From the IMG/VR virus record IMGVR_UViG_3300042288_000241, positions 1 to 27,574 of that record: DNA of 27,574 bases. One strand, written 5' to 3'. This stretch comes from a virus. The position numbers and the translations under genes were made by a program. The notes beneath the pieces were generated by a model that had not been told where the DNA came from, searched no databases, and saw nothing but the letters and a program-made list of their open reading frames with translations. Of this stretch, positions 5,268-21,065 are shown piece by piece (within the stretch, counting starts at the first letter, position 1; each line of letters opens with the position of its first letter).

Positions 5268-5634
5268 TTTCTACTTGAACCTCTACCCGCTCCTCGCCGT
5301 AATGCTTTGAGGCAACGAGCTGTGCTACCACTGCGTCATCAGCAAAGACAACGCCATTTAGCCCATCCAGAATCGCCTTGACGACGTTATCAATGTCAGG
5401 ACGAGAGATGTGCCACCCCGTTTTTTTCTTGTGTGCAAAGTACGCTGTAATAGTGACTTTGACTGGCCCTTCTAGCATGGCCTTACCGATCATCGCAACC
5501 TGAGCCAAAGACTTTACGTTTTGTTCGTAAATCTGCGTTTCTCTCGGCGTAAACGTCACGACTTTATTTCCGCGACGGCTAAATCGGGGACGAGCCTTGC
5601 CCACAGGCTTCCCATGAATCACTAAGTCAATCAT
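5260..5634 (-). CDS. rusA: RusA-like Holliday junction resolvase
   Basis: At 124 residues it is the usual length for RusA. It starts with IHGKPVGKARPRFSRRG, the basic N-terminal strand of the family. The catalytic region RPDIDNVVKAILDGLNG follows, then VFADDAVV. The aspartates D80 and D82, with D99/D100, and K86 correspond to the metal-binding residues of E. coli RusA. The enzyme cuts four-way junctions as a homodimer, resolving recombination intermediates and branched DNA before packaging. Its start overlaps the stop of the HTH gene (ATGA) and its end overlaps the prim-pol gene, so the three form one leftward operon. All expected catalytic residues are present. Confidence 0.93.
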   Translation of the reverse strand: MIDLVIHGKPVGKARPRFSRRGNKVVTFTPRETQIYEQNVKSLAQVAMIGKAMLEGPVKVTITAYFAHKKKTGWHISRPDIDNVVKAILDGLNGVVFADDAVVAQLVASKHYGEERVEVQVENV

Positions 5635-6002
5635 TTCAACCCCGCTACCTTATATATACGTTCAACAATGTTTGACGGCGTATCTGTTTGGCCGCTCACA
5701 AAACGAGCCAAAGTATTGCGATGAATGCGTATCTTTTTCGCCGCAGCAGATAGCGTAAGCCCCTGTTTCCGAAGGCTTAAATAGATGCGTTCTCCCTCGG
5801 TTAAACGGCCTTCTATCGCTATACCCACTTGACCCTTGGTCTTGCGCTCAATAACCTTCAACCACTTAGGCGATGGCGCTCTGGAACCACTGGCCCACCG
5901 GGTCACGGCAGCGCGAGTACAGCCGCACATAAGCGCAAACTCTTCGTGTGTCAAGTTGTTCTCTTCCAGCCACTCTGCAAGAGATAAAATTTGTGTTTCC
6001 AT
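5631..6002 (-). CDS. Double helix-turn-helix transcription regulator
   Basis: A 123-residue protein with two HTH units. The first, about residues 7-55, contains LTHEEFALMCGCTRAAVTRWASG, a Cro/YdaS-like HTH. The second, about residues 69-120, contains LTLSAAAKKIRIHRNTLARFVSG, a second XRE-like HTH ending in TDTPSNIVERI. It could bind DNA as a monomer with a two-fold site, like a fused dimer. I chose ATG 6002 because the protein then starts METQILSLAEW. A GTG at 6035 would add 11 residues. Neither start has a good Shine-Dalgarno sequence, so initiation may be weak or leaderless. It is first in the leftward operon and faces the divergent operon across 116 bp holding a palindrome and seven heptamers, the natural place for its operators. 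Confidence 0.75.
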   Translation of the reverse strand: METQILSLAEWLEENNLTHEEFALMCGCTRAAVTRWASGSRAPSPKWLKVIERKTKGQVGIAIEGRLTEGERIYLSLRKQGLTLSAAAKKIRIHRNTLARFVSGQTDTPSNIVERIYKVAGLK

Positions 6003-6021
6003 GGTGACATCATGCCAGCAC

Positions 6022-6050
6022 TTGCAAACCGTCACAAGGGGGTGTAGAGT
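6022..6050 (+). promoter_or_regulatory. Candidate rightward promoter of the recombination operon
   Basis: TTGCAA at 6022-6027 and TAGAGT at 6045-6050 are separated by 17 bp and each match four of six sigma-70 consensus bases. Transcription would start near 6057, just at the palindrome and before the heptamer repeats, giving a leader of about 60 nt. I see no comparably good leftward promoter in the same gap. The call rests on sequence match and position only. Confidence 0.4.
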
Positions 6051-6057
6051 CCATTTC

Positions 6058-6071
6058 GTCGGGTAACCGAC
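6058..6071. promoter_or_regulatory. 14-bp palindrome, candidate operator or 5' stem-loop
   Basis: GTCGG (6058-6062) and CCGAC (6067-6071) form a perfect inverted repeat around GTAA. As DNA it has the shape of an operator for an HTH protein. As RNA it is a five-pair stem with a GNRA-type GUAA tetraloop, placed at the predicted 5' end of the rightward transcript. It touches the first heptamer repeat. Which level it works at cannot be decided from one sequence. Confidence 0.45.
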
Positions 6072-6120
6072 TGAACACTGAAACCTGAACTTTGAACACT
6101 GAACGAGGAACCCTGAATAT
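6072..6120. repeat. Seven tandem 7-bp repeats (TGAACNN) in the divergent control region
   Basis: Seven consecutive heptamers occur in exact register: TGAACAC, TGAAACC, TGAACTT, TGAACAC, TGAACGA, GGAACCC and TGAATAT. All seven share GAA, six begin TGAA, and units one and four are identical. The 7-bp period puts every third repeat 21 bp apart, close to two helical turns. The array lies between the double-HTH gene and the next rightward gene. The GAGGAA ribosome binding site (6105-6110) spans units five and six, and the ATG (6119) begins in unit seven. Candidate roles are an operator array for the regulator, an origin-type iteron set, or slippage-prone control of the leader. Confidence 0.7.
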
Positions 6121-6493
6121 GCGAAATGAGTTTGAAATAGCAGATGATCTTTTCAAGGCTAAGCAAGCTGAACGCGAAGCCGAAGAAAGACGGATAGCAC
6201 TAGAAGAGGAACTCGTAGCCGTACTAGGCAAACGAGAGGAAGGCAGCAAAACCCATGCTGTTGGCAGCTACAAAGTCACGATCACCGGTCGTATCAATCG
6301 CAAGATTGACTGGGAGTTGTTTGACCAAGTGTCGAGCAAGATTCCAGAGACGTTGTGGCCAGTAAAGCGAACCTTGGATGTAACCGGGGTCAAGTACCTC
6401 GCGAACAACGAGCCGCAACTCTACAAAGTGTTGTCACCCGCTTTAACTGTTGAACCCGCTAAAACTACTGTATCTATCGTAATGGGAGCTTGA
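6119..6493 (+). CDS. Conserved phage protein of unknown function, first gene of the recombination operon
   Basis: A 124-residue protein that begins with a charged coiled-coil helix (residues 8-45, rich in Ala, Glu and Arg), then a compact domain with SYKVTITGRINRKIDWELFDQ, IPETLWPVKRTLDVTGVKYL and LYKVLSPALTVEPAKTTVSI. Proteins of this pattern are frequent next to Sak4-like ATPase and DUF669 genes in phages, but no function is known to me. ATG 6119 is preferred to the upstream TTG at 6092 because GAGGAA sits 8 nt before it. The upstream extension would be translated heptamer repeat. It is followed after one base by the ATPase gene. A helper role for the ATPase or the single-strand binding protein is a guess from position. 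Confidence 0.8.
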   Translation: MRNEFEIADDLFKAKQAEREAEERRIALEEELVAVLGKREEGSKTHAVGSYKVTITGRINRKIDWELFDQVSSKIPETLWPVKRTLDVTGVKYLANNEPQLYKVLSPALTVEPAKTTVSIVMGA

Positions 6494-6494
6494 G

Positions 6495-7259
6495 ATGGCC
6501 ATATCACTTAAAAGTTTGAGAAAGACCGGCGTAGCACGACCGCCCCGAATTGTTCTGTACGGAACTCACGGTATCGGTAAGTCCACTTTCGCCGCCCAAG
6601 CACCGAATCCTGTCTTCATTCAAACCGAGGAAGGATTGGATGCAATAAACGTCACGGCCTTCCCGCTGTGCCAATCGTATGAAGAGATCATAGATGCGAT
6701 TGGATCACTGGCTCAGGAAGATCACGACTTCGGAACCGTTGTGATTGACTCGGCTGACTGGGCTGAGCAACTGGTTCACAAGCGTGTTGCCAAGGACAAC
6801 AACGTGGCTACCATCGACGCCATCGGCTACGGTCGCGGCTACAAGGCGGCAACGGATTACTGGAAGCAGATTCTGGAAGGGCTGGATCACCTCCGCTCCG
6901 ATAAGAATATGCAAGTCATCCTGCTGGCACATACGCAAGTAAAGCGTTTTGATGACCCGCTGGCTGACCCGTATGACCGTTACCAGTTGGACCTGCATCA
7001 TGGCAGCGCAAGCCTGATCAGCGAATGGTGCGACATCCTGATGTTTGCGAACCAGCAGTACAGCACTGTGAAAAGTGATGTGGGTTTCAACCAGAAGGTC
7101 ACTCGCGCTGTCGGTAGCGGTAATCGTGTGCTGTACACCCAAGAGCGTCCGGGTTGGCAGGCTAAGTCCCGCTGGCCGTTGCCGGATCAACTTCCCCTTG
7201 AATACGCCAAGTTTGCAGAGGCGCTTGGCACTTCTATGAACAACGTGATCGGAGAGTAA
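6495..7259 (+). CDS. Sak4-like RecA-fold ATPase (phage recombination)
   Basis: The 254-residue protein has a Walker A motif GTHGIGKST (residues 23-31) directly after the first strand, and a Walker B strand TVVIDSAD ending at D85. A QVILLAHTQVKRFDDP segment near the middle fits the RecA-core sensor region, and there is a C-terminal YTQERPGWQAKSRW segment. This is the plan of the AAA_24/Sak4 group, a shortened RecA-like single-strand annealing ATPase used in phage recombination. Sak4 proteins work with the single-strand binding protein encoded next to them, as here with DUF669 four bases downstream. It begins one base after the previous stop. The annealing function is known for a few family members and is inferred here. 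Confidence 0.85.
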   Translation: MAISLKSLRKTGVARPPRIVLYGTHGIGKSTFAAQAPNPVFIQTEEGLDAINVTAFPLCQSYEEIIDAIGSLAQEDHDFGTVVIDSADWAEQLVHKRVAKDNNVATIDAIGYGRGYKAATDYWKQILEGLDHLRSDKNMQVILLAHTQVKRFDDPLADPYDRYQLDLHHGSASLISEWCDILMFANQQYSTVKSDVGFNQKVTRAVGSGNRVLYTQERPGWQAKSRWPLPDQLPLEYAKFAEALGTSMNNVIGE

Positions 7260-7263
7260 TAAC

Positions 7264-7740
7264 ATGGCATTGCTTAATTTGAATCCTGCTGACTTTGAAA
7301 ACATCAGCGACGGCGCACCTGAGATTCTGCCGGTTGGCGAGTACCAGATGCACATCATCAACTCGGAGCTTCGCGATACGAAGATGGGCGACGGTCAGTA
7401 CCTCTGGCTGGAGTTTGAAATCCTCGGGCCGAAGTATGTCGGTCGCAAGTTCTGGGATCGCCTGAATCTCTTTAACAAGAACGAGACGGCGGTGAAGATT
7501 GCTCGTAAGACTCTGAGCAACATTTGCTCGGCCTTGAACTTTTCGTCGTTGCCGAATGACTCGGTTCAGTTGCACAACAAGGCGCTGAAAGTGGTCATCA
7601 CGCACAAAGAGAACAAGCAAGGCAAGCTGGAAGTGCGTCCGGCGTACTACGGGGTGAATGCTCCTGTGGCGACGGAAACGGCTGCTCCGGCGGCTCCTGC
7701 GGGTGCTGCTCCCAAACCTTGGGAACGGCATAAGAAGTAA
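7264..7740 (+). CDS. DUF669 single-stranded DNA-binding protein
   Basis: A 158-residue protein that matches DUF669 phage SSBs: LPVGEYQMHIINSELRDTKMGDG at the N-terminus, then YLWLEFEILGPKYVGRKFWDRLNL, an OB-fold strand pattern, then a helical part (AVKIARKTLSNICSAL) and VVITHKENKQGKLEVRPAYY. The tail is a flexible Ala/Pro linker ending in PKPWERHKK. Typical SSBs end in acidic residues, so this basic tip is unlike bacterial SSB and may bind a different partner. The binding site GGAGAG lies inside the end of the ATPase gene. It probably coats ssDNA for the Sak4-like ATPase and the nuclease. A strong RNA hairpin follows its stop within 6 nt. Confidence 0.87.
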   Translation: MALLNLNPADFENISDGAPEILPVGEYQMHIINSELRDTKMGDGQYLWLEFEILGPKYVGRKFWDRLNLFNKNETAVKIARKTLSNICSALNFSSLPNDSVQLHNKALKVVITHKENKQGKLEVRPAYYGVNAPVATETAAPAAPAGAAPKPWERHKK

Positions 7741-7823: not shown

Positions 7824-8774
7824 ATGGTTAAGATTCCAGACTTTGAAGATCCCACTTTGAAGGCGGTTGACGCTGCCTTGGAAGCCGAGCAAGAAAGTCG
7901 CCCTAGGAATTATCTAGGGGCATCGGCTATTGGGGATGTATGTGACCGCAAACTGTGGTTAAATTTCCGTTGGGTCAAGCGAGGGTTTATTGAGGCCGCT
8001 GGGCTACGTCGAATTAACGATGGGCACCGGGGTGAACAGGTAGTTGCAGACCTACTCCGCAAGGTAGCGGGGCTAGATCTTTCCACGGAAAAGGAACCCG
8101 GTGTTCAGCACTCCTTTGAGTCGCTAGGCGGACACTTTCGCGGTAACTGCGACGGGCTGATTACGGGCCTGATCCAAGATCCAGACACGCTTTACGTCTG
8201 GGAATGCAAAGTCATTAACGACATCAAGTACAAGAAGCTGGTGTCGCTCAAAATCAAGAACGAATCTGAAGCGTTGAAGAACTGGGACTATGTGTATTAC
8301 GCACAAGCTCAGATCTATATGCACTTCTTCAATGCGCCGAAACATTATCTGACCGCTGCCTCTGCCGGTGTGCGCGACATTACGAGCGTTGTCACTGAGT
8401 ACGATCAGGGCGAAGCCGAGAAGTTTATTGAGAAGGCCAAGCGCATCATTTTCTCACCAAGACCGGCCAGTAAGGTTTCATCTGACCCAGCGTGGCATGA
8501 GTGTAAGTACTGCAACTTCCACAGTATGTGCCATGGCGACGATATGCCGCGTCATAAGTCTTGCCGTACTTGCTTACATAGCACTCCGCTTAAAACGGGC
8601 GGCTGGAAGTGTGAGCTGCACAAGACGGACTTAGACATGGACGCACAAATCAAAGGCTGCGAGAACCATCTCTTTGTCCCTGACCTGATCCCCGGCGAAC
8701 AGATAAACTCGGGTCCTAACTGGGTTGAGTATTCACTGCGGGGTGGGGTTGTATGGATCGACAAATCGAAATAG
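7824..8774 (+). CDS. PD-(D/E)XK nuclease, Cas4/RecB-like, with Fe-S-type cysteines
   Basis: In this 316-residue protein the nuclease core shows H68, D110 (GNCDG), E127-x-K129 (VWECKV) and Q161/Q163 in YYAQAQIYM, the full PD-(D/E)XK set. One cysteine before the core (C40, in DVCDRKLW) and three after it (C227, C230, C236 in ECKYCNFHSMC) match the four-cysteine pattern that holds a 4Fe-4S cluster in Cas4 and AddB. A second set, C247, C250, C263 and C279, makes a separate zinc-ribbon-like unit near the C-terminus. The enzyme probably processes DNA ends for the Sak4/SSB annealing system. It starts with GGAGG only 4 nt before the ATG, beneath the RNA fold described upstream. It overlaps the next gene by 22 nt. 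Nothing here suggests CRISPR adaptation. Confidence 0.85.
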   Translation: MVKIPDFEDPTLKAVDAALEAEQESRPRNYLGASAIGDVCDRKLWLNFRWVKRGFIEAAGLRRINDGHRGEQVVADLLRKVAGLDLSTEKEPGVQHSFESLGGHFRGNCDGLITGLIQDPDTLYVWECKVINDIKYKKLVSLKIKNESEALKNWDYVYYAQAQIYMHFFNAPKHYLTAASAGVRDITSVVTEYDQGEAEKFIEKAKRIIFSPRPASKVSSDPAWHECKYCNFHSMCHGDDMPRHKSCRTCLHSTPLKTGGWKCELHKTDLDMDAQIKGCENHLFVPDLIPGEQINSGPNWVEYSLRGGVVWIDKSK

Positions 8775-8962
8775 ATGAGGACGAGGTAGAAGTAGACGCA
8801 ACCATGCTGCTGACCGCTGACGATTTAGAAATCGTTATGAAGGCTCTGGATTGCTATGCCTACGCTCTCATCATGGCTCAAGCCGTTGGTGAATTAGAAC
8901 GAGTGAAACAAGTGGCAATGTCAATTGTTCAGTCATGCCCAAAACCGGAGTTAGATTCGTGA
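8753..8962 (+). CDS. Small acidic protein of unknown function
   Basis: A 69-residue protein that I do not recognise. It begins with a very acidic stretch (IEIDEDEVEVDA) followed by two predicted helices (TADDLEIVMKALDCYAYALIM and ELERVKQVAMSIVQ). It overlaps the nuclease gene by 22 nt and its stop overlaps the GTG start of the helicase gene, so it is embedded in the operon. A G-rich stretch before the ATG may serve as ribosome binding site. The acidic N-terminus could mimic DNA or bind a basic partner, but that is a guess. Confidence 0.65.
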   Translation: MDRQIEIDEDEVEVDATMLLTADDLEIVMKALDCYAYALIMAQAVGELERVKQVAMSIVQSCPKPELDS

Positions 8963-10638
8963 TTACACTCAGACCCTATCAACAAGAAGCGATAGATAGC
9001 ACTCTTCGGTATTTCCAAGAGCAAGAAGGTAATCCTCTGATCGTGTTGCCTACGGGTACTGGTAAAAGCGTTGTCATCGCAGATTTTTGTAAGCGCGTTT
9101 TAGCGCAGTGGCCAGATACAAAGATTTTGGTTGTGACGCACGTTCGTGAATTGATCCGTCAGAACTACGAAGAGCTAAAAGGTTTGTGGCCCGAAGCTCC
9201 GGCTGGCATCAACTCGGCTGGGCTAAAGAAGCGGGACTATGACCCGTCAATCGTATTCTGTGGGATACAGTCGGTGCATCGGAAGGCATCCAAGTTCGTG
9301 AAGGTGGACTTGGTACTGGTGGATGAAGCGCACCTGATTCCTCGTAAGACCAATACGATGTACCAGAAGTTCCTCAACAACCTGAAGATTATGAACCCTC
9401 ATGTCAGGGTGATTGGATTGACTGCCACGCCATATCGGTTGGATTCTGGATTGTTGCACTCTGGAAACGATAGCCTGTTCGACGGCGTGTCATACGAAGC
9501 CGATTTGAAAGACATGGTGGAGCAGGGCTATCTCACCAAGTTGATGTCCAAGCAGCCCAAGACGCGCCTTGACGTTAGCGGCGTCAGTGTCCGGGGTGGC
9601 GAGTTTGTGCCCGGTGAGCTGGAGCGTGCGGTTAATCGTGCTGATGTGAATGAATCCATCGTGCGGGAAATCGTACTGTTCGGAGCCGAGAGAAAGTCTT
9701 GGCTGATCTTCTGCGCCGGGGTTCAGCACGCTACCGACGTAGCCAACATTGTCAGACGCTATGGGGTCAGTTGTGAAACGATCTTCGGGGATACCCCTGA
9801 CGCAGAGCGGGATCGTATCGTGCGTGACTTCAAGGCCGGGAGAATCCGTTCTATTGCGTCCATGGGGGTGCTCACAACCGGCTTTAACGCCCCTGCTGTA
9901 GATTTGCTTGCACTGCTGCGACCCACTCAGTCAACCGGCTTGTATATACAGATTATGGGACGCGGGATGCGTAACTCGCCGGGTAAGTCAGACTGCTTGG
10001 TTTTGGACTTTGCGGGGAACATTGCACGGCACGGTCCGGTAGATCGGGTGAACCCCAAGAAGCCCCGCCAAACGACCGGAGAAGGCGTAGCGCCGACCAA
10101 GGACTGCCCCAAGTGCATGAGCATCGTTTTTGCGGGGTGCTCCGAGTGTCCTGACTGCGGCTACGTATGGCCACCCACAGCTCCGGCTATCGACCAGACG
10201 GCTACGACGCTGCCGGTGATGAGTGCGAGCGCACCCGCCGAATGGGTCAAGGTCAACTCTGTCACTTATCGGATACACAAGAAGCCCGGTAAGCCTGACT
10301 CCATGCGGGTTGAATATCGCGCTGGGCTGGAGATTTATCGGGAATGGGTGTGCTTCGACCATAAGGGTTACCCCCGTGATAAGGCTCTCAAGTGGTGGCG
10401 CAAGCGTATGACCGGCCCCGGCATTCTCCCCGGCACGACCGTAGACGCTATTGCGAAGGCAGATTCCCTAATGAAGCCCACCGAGATTCAGGTTCGTAAG
10501 AATGGCAAGTACACAGAGATTGTCGAGTTTCGGTTTATGCCCGGTGTGCAAGCGGGAGGCACGGGGGTTCCTGTATCTGCCGCCGCCGGGGGTACTCAAA
10601 ACCAAGGCTCGCTTTTGTTCAATGCGTTGCATGGATGA
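8959..10638 (+). CDS. SF2 DEAH-box helicase with zinc-binding segment
   Basis: A 559-residue protein if started at GTG 8959, which overlaps the previous stop (GTGA), has GGAG at 8947-8950 and gives the typical opening MITLRPYQQEAID. An ATG at 8935 would add eight residues without a binding site. Motifs are the Q-type RPYQ, Walker A PTGTGKS (31-37), DEAH (122-125), TAT (155-157), TTGFNAP near 306 and QIMGRGMR (331-338), all intact. After the helicase core comes CPKC...CSECPDCG (C383, C386, C394, C397, C400), a probable zinc ribbon, then about 150 residues of unknown fold. It is like RecQ-distant, RecG/UvsW-type phage helicases that remodel replication forks and recombination intermediates. The last 137 nt are shared with the next gene in another frame. 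Confidence 0.9.
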   Translation: MITLRPYQQEAIDSTLRYFQEQEGNPLIVLPTGTGKSVVIADFCKRVLAQWPDTKILVVTHVRELIRQNYEELKGLWPEAPAGINSAGLKKRDYDPSIVFCGIQSVHRKASKFVKVDLVLVDEAHLIPRKTNTMYQKFLNNLKIMNPHVRVIGLTATPYRLDSGLLHSGNDSLFDGVSYEADLKDMVEQGYLTKLMSKQPKTRLDVSGVSVRGGEFVPGELERAVNRADVNESIVREIVLFGAERKSWLIFCAGVQHATDVANIVRRYGVSCETIFGDTPDAERDRIVRDFKAGRIRSIASMGVLTTGFNAPAVDLLALLRPTQSTGLYIQIMGRGMRNSPGKSDCLVLDFAGNIARHGPVDRVNPKKPRQTTGEGVAPTKDCPKCMSIVFAGCSECPDCGYVWPPTAPAIDQTATTLPVMSASAPAEWVKVNSVTYRIHKKPGKPDSMRVEYRAGLEIYREWVCFDHKGYPRDKALKWWRKRMTGPGILPGTTVDAIAKADSLMKPTEIQVRKNGKYTEIVEFRFMPGVQAGGTGVPVSAAAGGTQNQGSLLFNALHG

Positions 10639-16916: not shown

Positions 16917-17908
16917 TACTTGCCTCCGCCGAGAAGACCGCTAAGGTAATCAGCTAAGTCGCTGTAATTTGTTTTATCAGTTCCGCCCGAGCTAGACGGG
17001 AAATACTTTCGATATTTATCAATAAGCTCCTGAATACCGGTAGCTCCAGTAATAGCTTTCTCAAGACCGGAGGCGCTCCCCGGCATCGCAGGCATTTCGG
17101 TTGTTTGCTCAATCGTTGTCTGAGGCAATCGAACGCCCTGAAGCACATCCGACAAGAACTTGATCTGTTCCTTCGGATAGCCCTCTTGCTTGAGGAAGTC
17201 CTGATACGCCAGATTAAGATTGGCCTGCCCCATCTCGCGCTCTTTCTCACCAACACCAGCAACCGCTCCGGCTCCGGTCAAGCCGTATCGCTGAGCCATG
17301 CCAGCAATGTCCGCAGCCGTTCCTGCCAATTGAGCTTTACGAGCAGCGTCAGATTGGAATATGTCCGCAGCCTGTCCGTACCCAGCCTGAAGTGCCTTGG
17401 CTTGCTCGCCCAGCACAGCCTCTTGGACATCGCGCAACGCACGCGCACCAAACTCGCCCATACGAGTTGAGCCGGGACCGACGTTAAACTGGCCAGCCTG
17501 AATAAATTCTTGTCCAATCGCCGGGAGATACTTTTCCTGCAACTGACGCACACCCTGCGCCGCGATCTGATCGACCACGTTCTGGGTGTACGGATTCATG
17601 TATGCGCTGACAGCCTCAGGGAAGGTTTGACCCGCTCCCGCTAAAGCTTCACCAGCCTGCCCCAAGAACGGCTGATATGAGCCAGCCGCTGCCTTGGTCA
17701 TCTCAAAGCCGGTCTTCTCTGTCGGGGTAAACCCGGCAATACGCGGCCCGGTGTACTGAGCATACGGAAGGTTGGCCACGCCCTGAGCGCGACCCAGCAT
17801 GTCAGTGGTGTACTGGGTGTACCACTCTGGCAATTGAACTTGGGTACTGGTGCTTGAAGTACCCGGTGTAGGGGCGCTGCCCTCAAAGAGAAAGTCTACG
17901 ACACCCAT
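16916..17908 (-). CDS. Putative internal or tail-associated virion protein
   Basis: A 330-residue protein. It begins MGVVDFLFEGSAP, then a low-complexity linker, then Ala/Gly/Gln-rich helices with YMNPYTQNVVDQIAAQG and QFNVGPGSTRMGEFGARALRDVQEAV. The MNPYTxxVV motif recurs in virion proteins of many podovirus-like phages that are encoded next to transglycosylase virion proteins, but its function has not been defined to my knowledge. The C-terminal 40 residues are Gly/Ser-rich and end in LSGLLGGGK. TAATG junctions join it to both neighbours, which fits tightly coupled production of parts of one assembly. Confidence 0.75.
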   Translation of the reverse strand: MGVVDFLFEGSAPTPGTSSTSTQVQLPEWYTQYTTDMLGRAQGVANLPYAQYTGPRIAGFTPTEKTGFEMTKAAAGSYQPFLGQAGEALAGAGQTFPEAVSAYMNPYTQNVVDQIAAQGVRQLQEKYLPAIGQEFIQAGQFNVGPGSTRMGEFGARALRDVQEAVLGEQAKALQAGYGQAADIFQSDAARKAQLAGTAADIAGMAQRYGLTGAGAVAGVGEKEREMGQANLNLAYQDFLKQEGYPKEQIKFLSDVLQGVRLPQTTIEQTTEMPAMPGSASGLEKAITGATGIQELIDKYRKYFPSSSGGTDKTNYSDLADYLSGLLGGGK

Positions 17909-20832
17909 TAGGTCAACCCTCCGCCCATGTACTTGCTAGGCGATTTTGCGTTTGGACTAATCCGGCCACGCGATAGGGCACGACCCTTGTGCTTTCGGAT
18001 ATTAGCACGGAACTTATCCATGCGCCGAGCACCCTCCTTGGTCGAGCCGTCCCCCAGCAGAGCCAGCGTTTCAGCATCAATCACGTATTCCCCATCGCTC
18101 AGGAGAGCCGGGATCTTGTCTTCCCGTCCCGAGCCGGGACCATCTACGTAGCGGGAACTCTTGGAGCCGCCCTTGGCGTAGCCGGTTAGCCCGCCCGTAG
18201 CCATCGGAACATCTTCACCCGGCGGTTTTGCAGGCGGAAGTTCAGGCTGTACCGGCTTCTCAAGCTGAGTCGTGTAATCAAAGAACTTCGCCTCCGGTCG
18301 TGTACCGTAGGTGTAGTAATCAATGTCCGGGCTTAACTGCTGACGGGTGTAGGTGTACTTGGGCAACGCGCCGCCCATGCTTGGCATAGAGGGAGCCGTA
18401 CCACCGCCTCGGGAACCAGAACCGGCTGACCCAAGAGCACCCAGCAACTTCAAGAAGTTTTCCAGAGTGCCGTACTTGTCGAGCAAGTCTTTAAGTGGAT
18501 CAGGCTTATTGATCTTGGTCGGCTCCTTAGGAATATCCACGGGAGTCGTCGGAGGAATAACGACTGGGGGAATAACCAAATCTGGCGGAGGGGTCGGCTT
18601 CGTTGTTTCAATAACCACTTCATCAAGCGGACCTTCTGGCGAAACTGTATCAACCGGAGTAGACGGCGTAGTAACAACCGGCGGAGTAATTACCGGAGGT
18701 TCAGTAGGTTTAGTTGTCTCAACAACCACTTCGTCAAGCGGTCCTTCTGGCGTGACTGTATCAACCGGAGTAGATGGTGTAGTGACAACAGGAGGAGTAA
18801 TTACCGGAGGCTCGGTAGGTTTAGTAGTTTCAATAACTACTTCATCAAGCGGTCCTTCTGGGGTAACTGTATCAACAGGAGTAGATGGCGTAGTAACCAC
18901 CGGAGGCGTAACTACCGGAGGCTCAGTTGGCTTAGTAGTTTCAATAACTACCTCTTCGAGAGGAGGCTCAGTAATAGACGGCTCTGCAACAACATTGGTA
19001 AGCGCACCAACAGCAGGTGCGGCAACCGCAGGCGGAATAACTGGAGCCTTTGAGCCAGTGACAACAACCTCTTCAAGAGGCGGTTCCGGAGTAGTCGGAG
19101 TAGACGCAGCCGAGCCGGTTGATGCTCCGCCAGCACCACTTGCCGCCGCGCCAGCACCACCGGCAGCAGCAAGTGCGGCTACTTGAGCAGCGGTTAATCC
19201 ACCGCCAGCGGTAACCGTGAACACAGGCAGCGCCAAGTTAGCAGCAGTCGTTCCAGCAACAAGGCCAGTCGGTACAACGCCAGTTAGACCCGCAGCTCCT
19301 GCCCCAGCAGCACCGGCACCCGCAGCACCAGCGCCACCCGCTCCAGCAGCACCACCAGCAGCTCCAGCACCACCGGCACTACCAGCGCCAAACAAACCGG
19401 GGATAGCCGTTGCACCCATAGCCGCCGCCGCAAGCGCAGCCAGCTCTTTAATCGGCAGCTTGCCAAGAAGCGTCTCTTCTTTTTTGACGCCAAGAGTGGG
19501 GTCAGCGTAACCAGCCTCTCCACCAAGGGCAGCAATGTTGCGCTCAATAGCCTGCTCTTTTTTGAACTCGTTACCCGGACCTAAATACCTTTCGGTAAAT
19601 ACACTCTCAGGCATTTCGTTGTAGAACTTAGCAATCTCGTTGGCATCCATCGGACCACGCAACATCTTCATCTTGTTGGGGTCAACGAGATTCCCAATAA
19701 AGTCGCCACCAAGATCTTGTTCAGCCTGAAGAGCAGCATCAAACGCACCACGGAAGTCATCCGCTTCAAGCAAACCGCTAATCCGATTCAATGCTTGAAC
19801 ACGCGGGTTCTCTGTAACCGCAGCCCTTTCGGCAGCAGTAATTTCAGCCGGACGCGCAACGGCCTGCAATGCACCGGCCATCTCTGGCGTAACATTAAAA
19901 TCAATTGCGGGACCAGACGGCGCAGCTTGAGGAACATAAATGCCGGTTCCAGTCGGAGCGGACGGCGCACCAGTTGCGCCAGTAAAACCTTGCTGAAGAA
20001 GACCCGGCTCAAGCGCCATCTTTTGCAGTTCTTCTGTCTTACGAAGGTTCGCAAAGAGTTCGTCAAGCGCACCCATGTTAAGGCCGGTGCTGGCGGGAAC
20101 ATCAGCGCCTTCCACAAAAGGAGTCGGAACAACTGGCTCTTCTACCGGCAATCCCGGCTCAGGCTTTGTTCCCGGAAGCGCAGTGACTATGTTTCGCTCT
20201 TCTGATGGTAATGCGCTTGTGTACATGGGTTCTTCCTTAATAGGAGTCAAAGCCCCAACAGGCTCCGGACTTTCTGCAATAGGTTCCTTAACCGAAGGCT
20301 CCGGCTCCGGCACTGGGGTCAAAGCGCCAACAGGCTCTTGCACGCGAGCAGCTTCTTCCGCTGCCAATCGAGCAGCTTGTTGCTCTTGCGCAACACGAGC
20401 GACTTCTTGCTGTTGAGCCAATCGTTGTAGCTCTTGTTCGCGAGCAATCTGTTCTTGACGCTGCTGCTCCGCAACTCGCGCTGCTTCTGCCTGTCGCGCA
20501 GCCGCTTCTTGCTCGGCCTGTCTGCGCTGAATCTCTGCTTGACGAATCTGTTCTTGACGAATCAGCTCTGCTTGACGAAGCTCTTCCGCAACGCGGATAC
20601 GCTCAGCTTCTTCAAAAGCTCTGCGGTTATCTGCCTCGTAATCAAAAACATCCGCACTGGGAATCGCGCCGTAAGTGTAATAAGACTGCTCCGGCTGAAT
20701 GCTAGGCAGAGCAGGCTCATAATAGTTTTGATAAGGATTGACCATCACTTCGGGAGTGATAGTTTGATACGGGTTGTAGTAATCCAAACCACCCATATCT
20801 CCAAAATCAAATTCATCAAATCGTATAGCCAT
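17908..20832 (-). CDS. Repeat-rich large virion protein
   Basis: The protein has 974 residues. I start at ATG 20832, which overlaps the previous stop as TAATG. An ATG at 20865 would begin inside the previous gene. Order of parts: a Tyr/Asn-rich start with YYTYG at 51-55, an Arg/Glu/Gln coiled coil at about 65-165, Pro/Glu-rich linkers with PVGALTP repeats, a globular middle, Ala/Gly-only segments at about 475-580, three 37-residue Pro/Thr repeats, a second YYTYG at about 837, and a C-terminus with DGPGSGREDKIPALLSDG followed by EYVIDAETLALLGDG. That C-terminus is shared by many phage virion proteins. No enzyme motif is visible. It is probably an elongated internal or tail protein. The membrane-like Ala/Gly segments could serve in ejection. 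Confidence 0.75.
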   Translation of the reverse strand: MAIRFDEFDFGDMGGLDYYNPYQTITPEVMVNPYQNYYEPALPSIQPEQSYYTYGAIPSADVFDYEADNRRAFEEAERIRVAEELRQAELIRQEQIRQAEIQRRQAEQEAAARQAEAARVAEQQRQEQIAREQELQRLAQQQEVARVAQEQQAARLAAEEAARVQEPVGALTPVPEPEPSVKEPIAESPEPVGALTPIKEEPMYTSALPSEERNIVTALPGTKPEPGLPVEEPVVPTPFVEGADVPASTGLNMGALDELFANLRKTEELQKMALEPGLLQQGFTGATGAPSAPTGTGIYVPQAAPSGPAIDFNVTPEMAGALQAVARPAEITAAERAAVTENPRVQALNRISGLLEADDFRGAFDAALQAEQDLGGDFIGNLVDPNKMKMLRGPMDANEIAKFYNEMPESVFTERYLGPGNEFKKEQAIERNIAALGGEAGYADPTLGVKKEETLLGKLPIKELAALAAAAMGATAIPGLFGAGSAGGAGAAGGAAGAGGAGAAGAGAAGAGAAGLTGVVPTGLVAGTTAANLALPVFTVTAGGGLTAAQVAALAAAGGAGAAASGAGGASTGSAASTPTTPEPPLEEVVVTGSKAPVIPPAVAAPAVGALTNVVAEPSITEPPLEEVVIETTKPTEPPVVTPPVVTTPSTPVDTVTPEGPLDEVVIETTKPTEPPVITPPVVTTPSTPVDTVTPEGPLDEVVVETTKPTEPPVITPPVVTTPSTPVDTVSPEGPLDEVVIETTKPTPPPDLVIPPVVIPPTTPVDIPKEPTKINKPDPLKDLLDKYGTLENFLKLLGALGSAGSGSRGGGTAPSMPSMGGALPKYTYTRQQLSPDIDYYTYGTRPEAKFFDYTTQLEKPVQPELPPAKPPGEDVPMATGGLTGYAKGGSKSSRYVDGPGSGREDKIPALLSDGEYVIDAETLALLGDGSTKEGARRMDKFRANIRKHKGRALSRGRISPNAKSPSKYMGGGLT
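18605..18937. repeat. Three tandem 111-bp repeats encoding 37-residue Pro/Thr units
   Basis: Exact 111-bp units lie at 18605-18715, 18716-18826 and 18827-18937, with decayed partial copies on both sides. Each unit encodes PTEPPV-TPPVVTTPSTPVD, then TV-PEGPLDEVV-ET in the leftward gene. The units differ at only three residue positions (V/I, I/V, T/S). Units one and two (by coordinate) differ at 14 of 111 bases, mostly synonymous, so the duplication is not recent and the amino-acid sequence has been kept. Confidence 0.9.
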
Positions 20833-21065
20833 TAGTCGAGCACCTGATAAAAGCGAAGCGCCCATTCGCGCCAGTCATCAAACTGATAAGGCGACGGAGG
20901 GTTTTGCTGCGAGATACCGTTAATACCAATAATGCCTGCCGCCCAATTCTGCCACTCAGACTCTTTCTCAAGCCGAGCAATAGGCCCGTAACCCTCAAGA
21001 TCAAAGACTGTGTAATCAGCCCAGTCCTGAAGCTTGTGATAGCGCGGGTCTGTCAGCAGGCTCAT
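20832..21065 (-). CDS. Small phage structural-module protein of unknown function
   Basis: A 77-residue protein. It is Trp- and Tyr-rich (DPRYHKLQDWADYTVFDLEGYGPI, then WQNWAAGI, and a C-terminal FDDWREWALRFYQVL), a soluble helical protein with no membrane segment. It overlaps the tail protein gene before it (ATGA) and the large virion protein after it (TAATG). Small acidic W-x-x-W-A proteins in this position are common next to gp10-like tail genes. They may be adaptors or chaperones, but I cannot support a specific role. Confidence 0.75.
   Translation of the reverse strand: MSLLTDPRYHKLQDWADYTVFDLEGYGPIARLEKESEWQNWAAGIIGINGISQQNPPSPYQFDDWREWALRFYQVLD

Follow-up and report, generated by a model that had tools for sequence, protein, structure and literature searches.

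A lineage-restricted array of seven heptamers in the predicted mRNA leader of a phage recombination operon

Seven heptamers running into the start codon of a phage recombination operon are a real, lineage-restricted and selectively held element that most likely acts on the RNA in translation initiation. The array lies in a stretch of viral DNA of 27,574 nucleotides (IMG/VR record IMGVR_UViG_3300042288_000241), referred to here as the window. In our model, to which we assign a rough probability of one half (0.52), a small hairpin and AAC-bearing heptamers leading into the Shine-Dalgarno (SD) sequence form an RNA-level initiation leader for the DUF7173-Sak4-SSB operon. Transcription would start at about 6057-6058, from an upstream promoter that would be repressor-controlled; the mRNA would open with the small stable hairpin and continue with 47 nt of loosely structured RNA carrying AAC every 7 nt, and this tract would take in the SD in unit 6 and lead up to the AUG after unit 7. 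The hairpin would shield the 5' end of the mRNA, the single-stranded AAC-rich tract would load the ribosome as a standby or S1-type initiation leader, and the leader would set the output of the operon. The array itself probably arose in one lineage as tandem copies of the SD-side heptamer and would have been kept by selection since then.

The heptamers are real and in register, as an earlier note on this DNA had proposed. They occupy 6070-6118 on the plus strand with the pattern NNNGAAC and read ACTGAAC, ACTGAAA, CCTGAAC, TTTGAAC, ACTGAAC, GAGGAAC and CCTGAAT, so that TGAAC is exact in four of the seven units and the remaining three have TGAAA, GGAAC and TGAAT. Two features of this anatomy favor the leader model: the SD (GAGGA, 6105-6109, plus strand) is itself an array unit, lying inside unit 6, and all units are 5' of the start codon, the ATG (6119-6121) following directly on unit 7. 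The aligned AGGA or GGA is kept in most relatives. TRF detects the array with weak scores (42-52) because the units are degenerate. At a lag of 7, the array is the top window in the 27.6-kb contig, with 27 of 40 matches at 6070-6071 against a best chance value of 26 in 300 dinucleotide shuffles of the contig; its strength was reached at any of seven non-codon lags in 4 of 300 such shuffles, and comparison with shuffles of the leader itself gives a lag-7 z of 5.8. That the array sits exactly between the hairpin and the start codon, and occurs in relatives, makes chance less likely still. Among all gene leaders of the window it is found in this one only, and a search of 5990-6200 against Rfam families, with hits accepted up to E 1, found none. 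Three near-identical records (one of 56 kb) and the relative L012 carry the array once each, and six further relatives have one partial array or none, giving one array or partial array in five of ten records and none in the other five. Cyanobacterial STRR heptamers are tandem 7-mers outside genes, and the earlier suggestion of STRR-type repeats fails on this distribution: instead of many dispersed copies per genome, the phage array occupies one site, inside a leader.

Placement of the array on the RNA draws on relatives fetched from IMG/VR by their Sak4 genes (80 fetched; readable leader at 74 loci, 44 of them distinct). A 44-bp block, GTGACATCATGCCA...TTGCA-N17-TAnnnT, with a consensus spanning GTGACATCATGCCACC..CTTGCATTCCGTCACAAGGGGGTGTA, is more than 90% conserved at most positions across 39 distinct sequences and is likely a promoter/operator; conservation falls directly 3' of it, and the variation of the leader 3' of this block is again in line with the leader model. 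The predicted rightward promoter (TTGCAA-17 bp-TAGAGT, 6022-6050, plus strand) is sigma-70-like but has only 8 of 12 consensus matches, which is under the threshold of a generic scan that consequently missed it; the promoter claim therefore rests on position and conservation, and its weakness by consensus counts against the leader model. The 44-bp block also includes two dyad-like candidate operators at 6004-6038; no other non-coding sequence around the operon is as well conserved in this phage family, and they are probably the true repressor sites. The first (family consensus GTGNCANNNTGNCAC, 6004-6018) is more than 90% conserved at most positions in the 39 distinct sequences, has a degraded right arm in the window and abuts the start of the divergent HTH gene. 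The second (CTTGCAAACCGTCACAAG, that is CTTG-N10-CAAG, 6021-6038) is among the most conserved intergenic blocks in the same 39 sequences and overlaps the -35 and spacer of the predicted promoter; searched as a pattern, it finds a match in 72 viral stretches.

The leader hairpin (GTCGG-GTAA-CCGAC, 6058-6071, plus strand) has a 5-bp stem, starts seven nt after the -10, at the predicted +1, and ends with two nucleotides that are also the first two of array unit 1. It folds in every leader of the array clade, and its position after the -10 is fixed in most relatives, in which the arms at the same place read ACCGG/CCGGT, GCCGG/CCGGC or ACTGG/CCAGT. Compensatory changes on both sides occur at three of the five pairs across relatives, with a covariation score of 0.507, compared with 0.247 for shuffles and no more than 0.2 at slid positions. 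The hairpin has been lost in one leader type (L013-L020, L024-L025, L029-L030). In L028 and L035-L036, long TGTCC-rich stems with an MFE of about -27 kcal/mol stand in place of the small hairpin. Because the array lies 3' of both the promoter block and the hairpin, we place it in the transcribed leader and not in the promoter/operator part; it is probably part of the mRNA leader rather than a docking site for a repressor. The earlier proposal that the repeats control translation of the recombination operon survives, variable copy number aside, because the predicted promoter is 5' of the array and the SD inside it. Compared with shuffles, the array is mildly less structured (z 0.7-2.1), so that "unstructured" is a relative term here. 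In having 5' structure followed by a single-stranded tract that would load ribosomes, the leader resembles ribosome standby leaders such as that of tisB (PMC7708055). It differs from them in lacking strong sequestration of the SD and in having an adjacent tract rather than one 100 nt away.

The operon begins with a DUF7173 protein (6119-6493, plus strand; Pfam DUF7173 E 1.8e-10), the start codon of which is fixed at 6119 by an M-[RK]-x-E N-terminus conserved in relatives; on account of the same conserved N-terminus, an upstream-frame peptide from TTG 6092 was dropped as a reading. It is followed on the plus strand by a Sak4-like RecA-core annealase (AAA_24; 6495-7259; PHROG 124 E 4e-43, PF13479), a DUF669 OB-fold SSB (7264-7740; PF05037 E 5.6e-19, PHROG 6015 SSB), a Cas4-domain exonuclease (7824-8774; PHROG 1990 E 8.6e-70) and, preceded by a small ORF, a DNA helicase (8935-10638; PHROG 16 E 4e-99). 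Leftward genes encode a double-HTH repressor-like protein, RusA and a prim-pol. The divergent gene with two HTH domains (5631-6002, minus strand) was borne out by HTH_3 and HTH_31 matches and by hits to PHROG repressor families. Its start at 6002 is five codons earlier in the window clade than in L021-L045 and abuts the operator, and the CCTCCT (AGGAGG) SD that many relatives have before the gene is absent from the window clade, where the transcript of the HTH gene may be leaderless or coupled to the operator. Gene trees of Sak4 compared with DUF7173, SSB and HTH (L013-L036) conflict strongly across the short operon, and the early-region genes thus appear to recombine among these phages. A DNA search found no close annotated phage, and protein matches to annotated phages are below 60% identity. 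We name no host because the full-length prokaryote contig matches, mostly Planctomycetota MAGs, are too distant, with identities of at most about 50%.

The seven-unit array is confined to one small clade, consisting of the window, its near-copies L002-L006, L007, L010 and L011-L012. About five units stand behind the larger hairpin in L035-L036, three to four loose units occur in L023 and L028, and most remaining leaders have none. As a general property of this operon the repeat is thus refuted, since most of the 74 leaders belong to relatives that keep the operon without it; in most relatives a far shorter leader suffices without any array, and the array is therefore not required, which counts against the leader model. 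The clade comprises only four distinct leaders, two of them (window and L007) near-identical, and all four distinct arrays have seven units. Variability in copy number, which the earlier note had considered, is accordingly not seen, despite divergence at four-fold sites of Sak4 of 27% between L010 and L011 and of 44-47% between the window and these two. Between the arrays of L010 and L011, AAC differs at 0 of 21 positions and the other four unit positions at 13 of 27 (Fisher p 1.5e-4; binomial P 0.0013 for AAC given the 27% four-fold divergence), and the window and L011 arrays differ at 7 of 49 positions compared with 44% of four-fold sites (P 9e-6). AAC spaced by about 7 nt is common in these leaders more widely: in 27 of them there are 77 AAC triplets where 33 are expected and 25 AAC spacings of 7 nt where 4 are expected, counts that overstate independence because these leaders are akin to one another. 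Insulation by the TGA stop codons was dropped as a role for the array, as L010 loses most TGA yet retains AAC. If the element is merely a loading leader, the relatives form a natural series, with short leaders, three to seven units and the hairpin present or lost, that would measure how repeats tune translation of phage recombination genes.

An unlikely alternative, but one that merits weighing, is that binding by the operon's own DUF669 SSB is nucleated at the 5' hairpin or just beside it and spreads over the heptamers through the SD, stopping translation when free SSB exceeds ssDNA. The leader architecture matches the T4/RB69 gene 32 operator, in which 5' structure is followed by a less structured tract of more than 40 nt with short A-rich repeats that includes the ribosome binding site (PMC535899): both have a 5' fold, then a less structured repeat tract through the ribosome binding site, in a phage recombination/SSB context. 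The two differ in that the present leader has a simple covarying hairpin rather than a pseudoknot and AAC every 7 nt rather than UUAAA repeats; moreover, SSB is here the third gene of the operon, which itself speaks against feedback of this kind. DUF669 adjoining Sak4 is a proven SSB in HK620 (PMC5928155), and the AF2 model of the window protein (mean pLDDT 79.5) matches the ssDNA-binding OB-fold of PrgE (Foldseek E 5.5e-5, prob 1.00). PrgE forms filaments on ssDNA (PMC11137577), but its footprint is 5 nt per monomer, not 7. The hairpinless leader type forms one clade on the SSB tree (100/99), a grouping that the tree of the intervening Sak4 gene rejects (AU p 0.0002), and of the gene trees that of SSB requires the fewest changes of leader label (5 compared with 6-8 for other genes). 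However, the DUF7173 tree does not reject the grouping (p 0.42), the label test was settled on only once the trees had been seen, and a distance-based partial Mantel test gave no special leader-SSB link (0.06, p 0.19), finding one only with the adjacent DUF7173. We therefore treat the link between leader and SSB as a lead, not a result. It is rather doubtful that the array constitutes a new kind of phage translational operator in which an in-register heptad RNA lattice assembles DUF669 SSB for feedback on the Sak4 operon, as a convergent parallel to the T4 gene 32 operator built on a different SSB family. Were the leader an SSB-fed RNA switch, sensing of free SSB via a repeat-bearing mRNA leader would have arisen more than once, and a simple, unit-countable RNA would be at hand for testing how SSB-like filaments discriminate mRNAs.

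Replication slippage would instead make the array a functionless tandem expansion in a tolerant untranslated leader, a reading that we also consider unlikely. Its patchy distribution is what such a by-product would give, and leader duplications recur in other clades: in L060, L061 and L066 the SD-bearing leader segment is tandemly doubled (AATGTGGAGATGT twice) by an independent duplication, which also counts for the leader model, and the L044 leader has a periodicity of 9 nt. Viral contigs, too, often carry tandem TGAAC-type repeats, with several different periods. The array pattern TGAACNN has at least 119 matches there, with control patterns giving at least 120 at period 6, 55 at period 8 and 47 for the reversed heptamer; because TGAAC repeats at other periods are common too, we do not claim a widespread special class of TGAACNN arrays. 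However, slippage does not readily account for seven units kept across 27-47% four-fold divergence or for AAC being constrained while its flanks vary, since homogenisation would not spare AAC alone. The AAC constraint speaks for a function that depends on the AAC register, and against slippage alone. Several intergenic arrays of TGAACNN heptamers occur in each of four unrelated viral contigs (L099, L118, L175 and L180), in some of which the arrays form inverted pairs and could fold into long hairpins, and in three unrelated phage contigs (L164, L567 and L569) runs of xGGAACx heptamers end exactly at a start codon.

Another route to translational control, which we regard as improbable, would be through an RNA-binding protein of the host that recognizes the heptamers, whether Hfq, a cold-shock protein or, at the GGA, CsrA. 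AAC fits the A-R-N motif of the distal face of Hfq. Precedent comes from TAACTGA 7-mers that precede start codons in Beggiatoaceae and in some cyanobacteria, for which a post-transcriptional role has been proposed (MacGregor 2015, PMC4679880), with S1, Csp or Csr put forward as binding proteins in Beggiatoaceae. In both cases tandem 7-mers stand a few nt 5' of a start codon; however, a Beggiatoaceae genome has 169 sets of its 7-mer in exact form, most of which lack an SD (PMC4679880), while the phage has one degenerate array of a different heptamer in a single leader, with the SD inside. Against host regulation, most relatives are without the array.

An operator for the double-HTH protein, raised in the earlier note, is very improbable. 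Direct repeats can bind regulators and the array does lie between divergent genes, but leader type proved independent of the HTH protein, whose recognition helices are identical with or without the array. L013-L019 encode HTH proteins 94% identical to that of the window, with those identical helices, and have no seven-unit array; L010-L011 share the array although their HTH proteins are only 77-78% identical to the window's; and the leaders of L025 and L035 are entirely different although their HTH proteins are nearly the same. Over 35 loci, leader distance is correlated with the adjacent DUF7173 (rho 0.40) but not with HTH distance (rho 0.02). The conserved candidate dyads upstream of the array further weaken the operator reading. 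Iterons for replication initiation, bound by the prim-pol or another initiator as the earlier note had also suggested, can be set aside as most improbable: direct repeats do adjoin replication genes, but most relatives retain the prim-pol without the array, the units are 7 bp with one array per record, and the array lies in the predicted leader with the SD inside.

Elsewhere in the window, a 111-bp in-frame repeat occurs three times at 18605-18948, inside a 985-aa ORF (17908-20865), and encodes 37 amino acids rich in proline and threonine.
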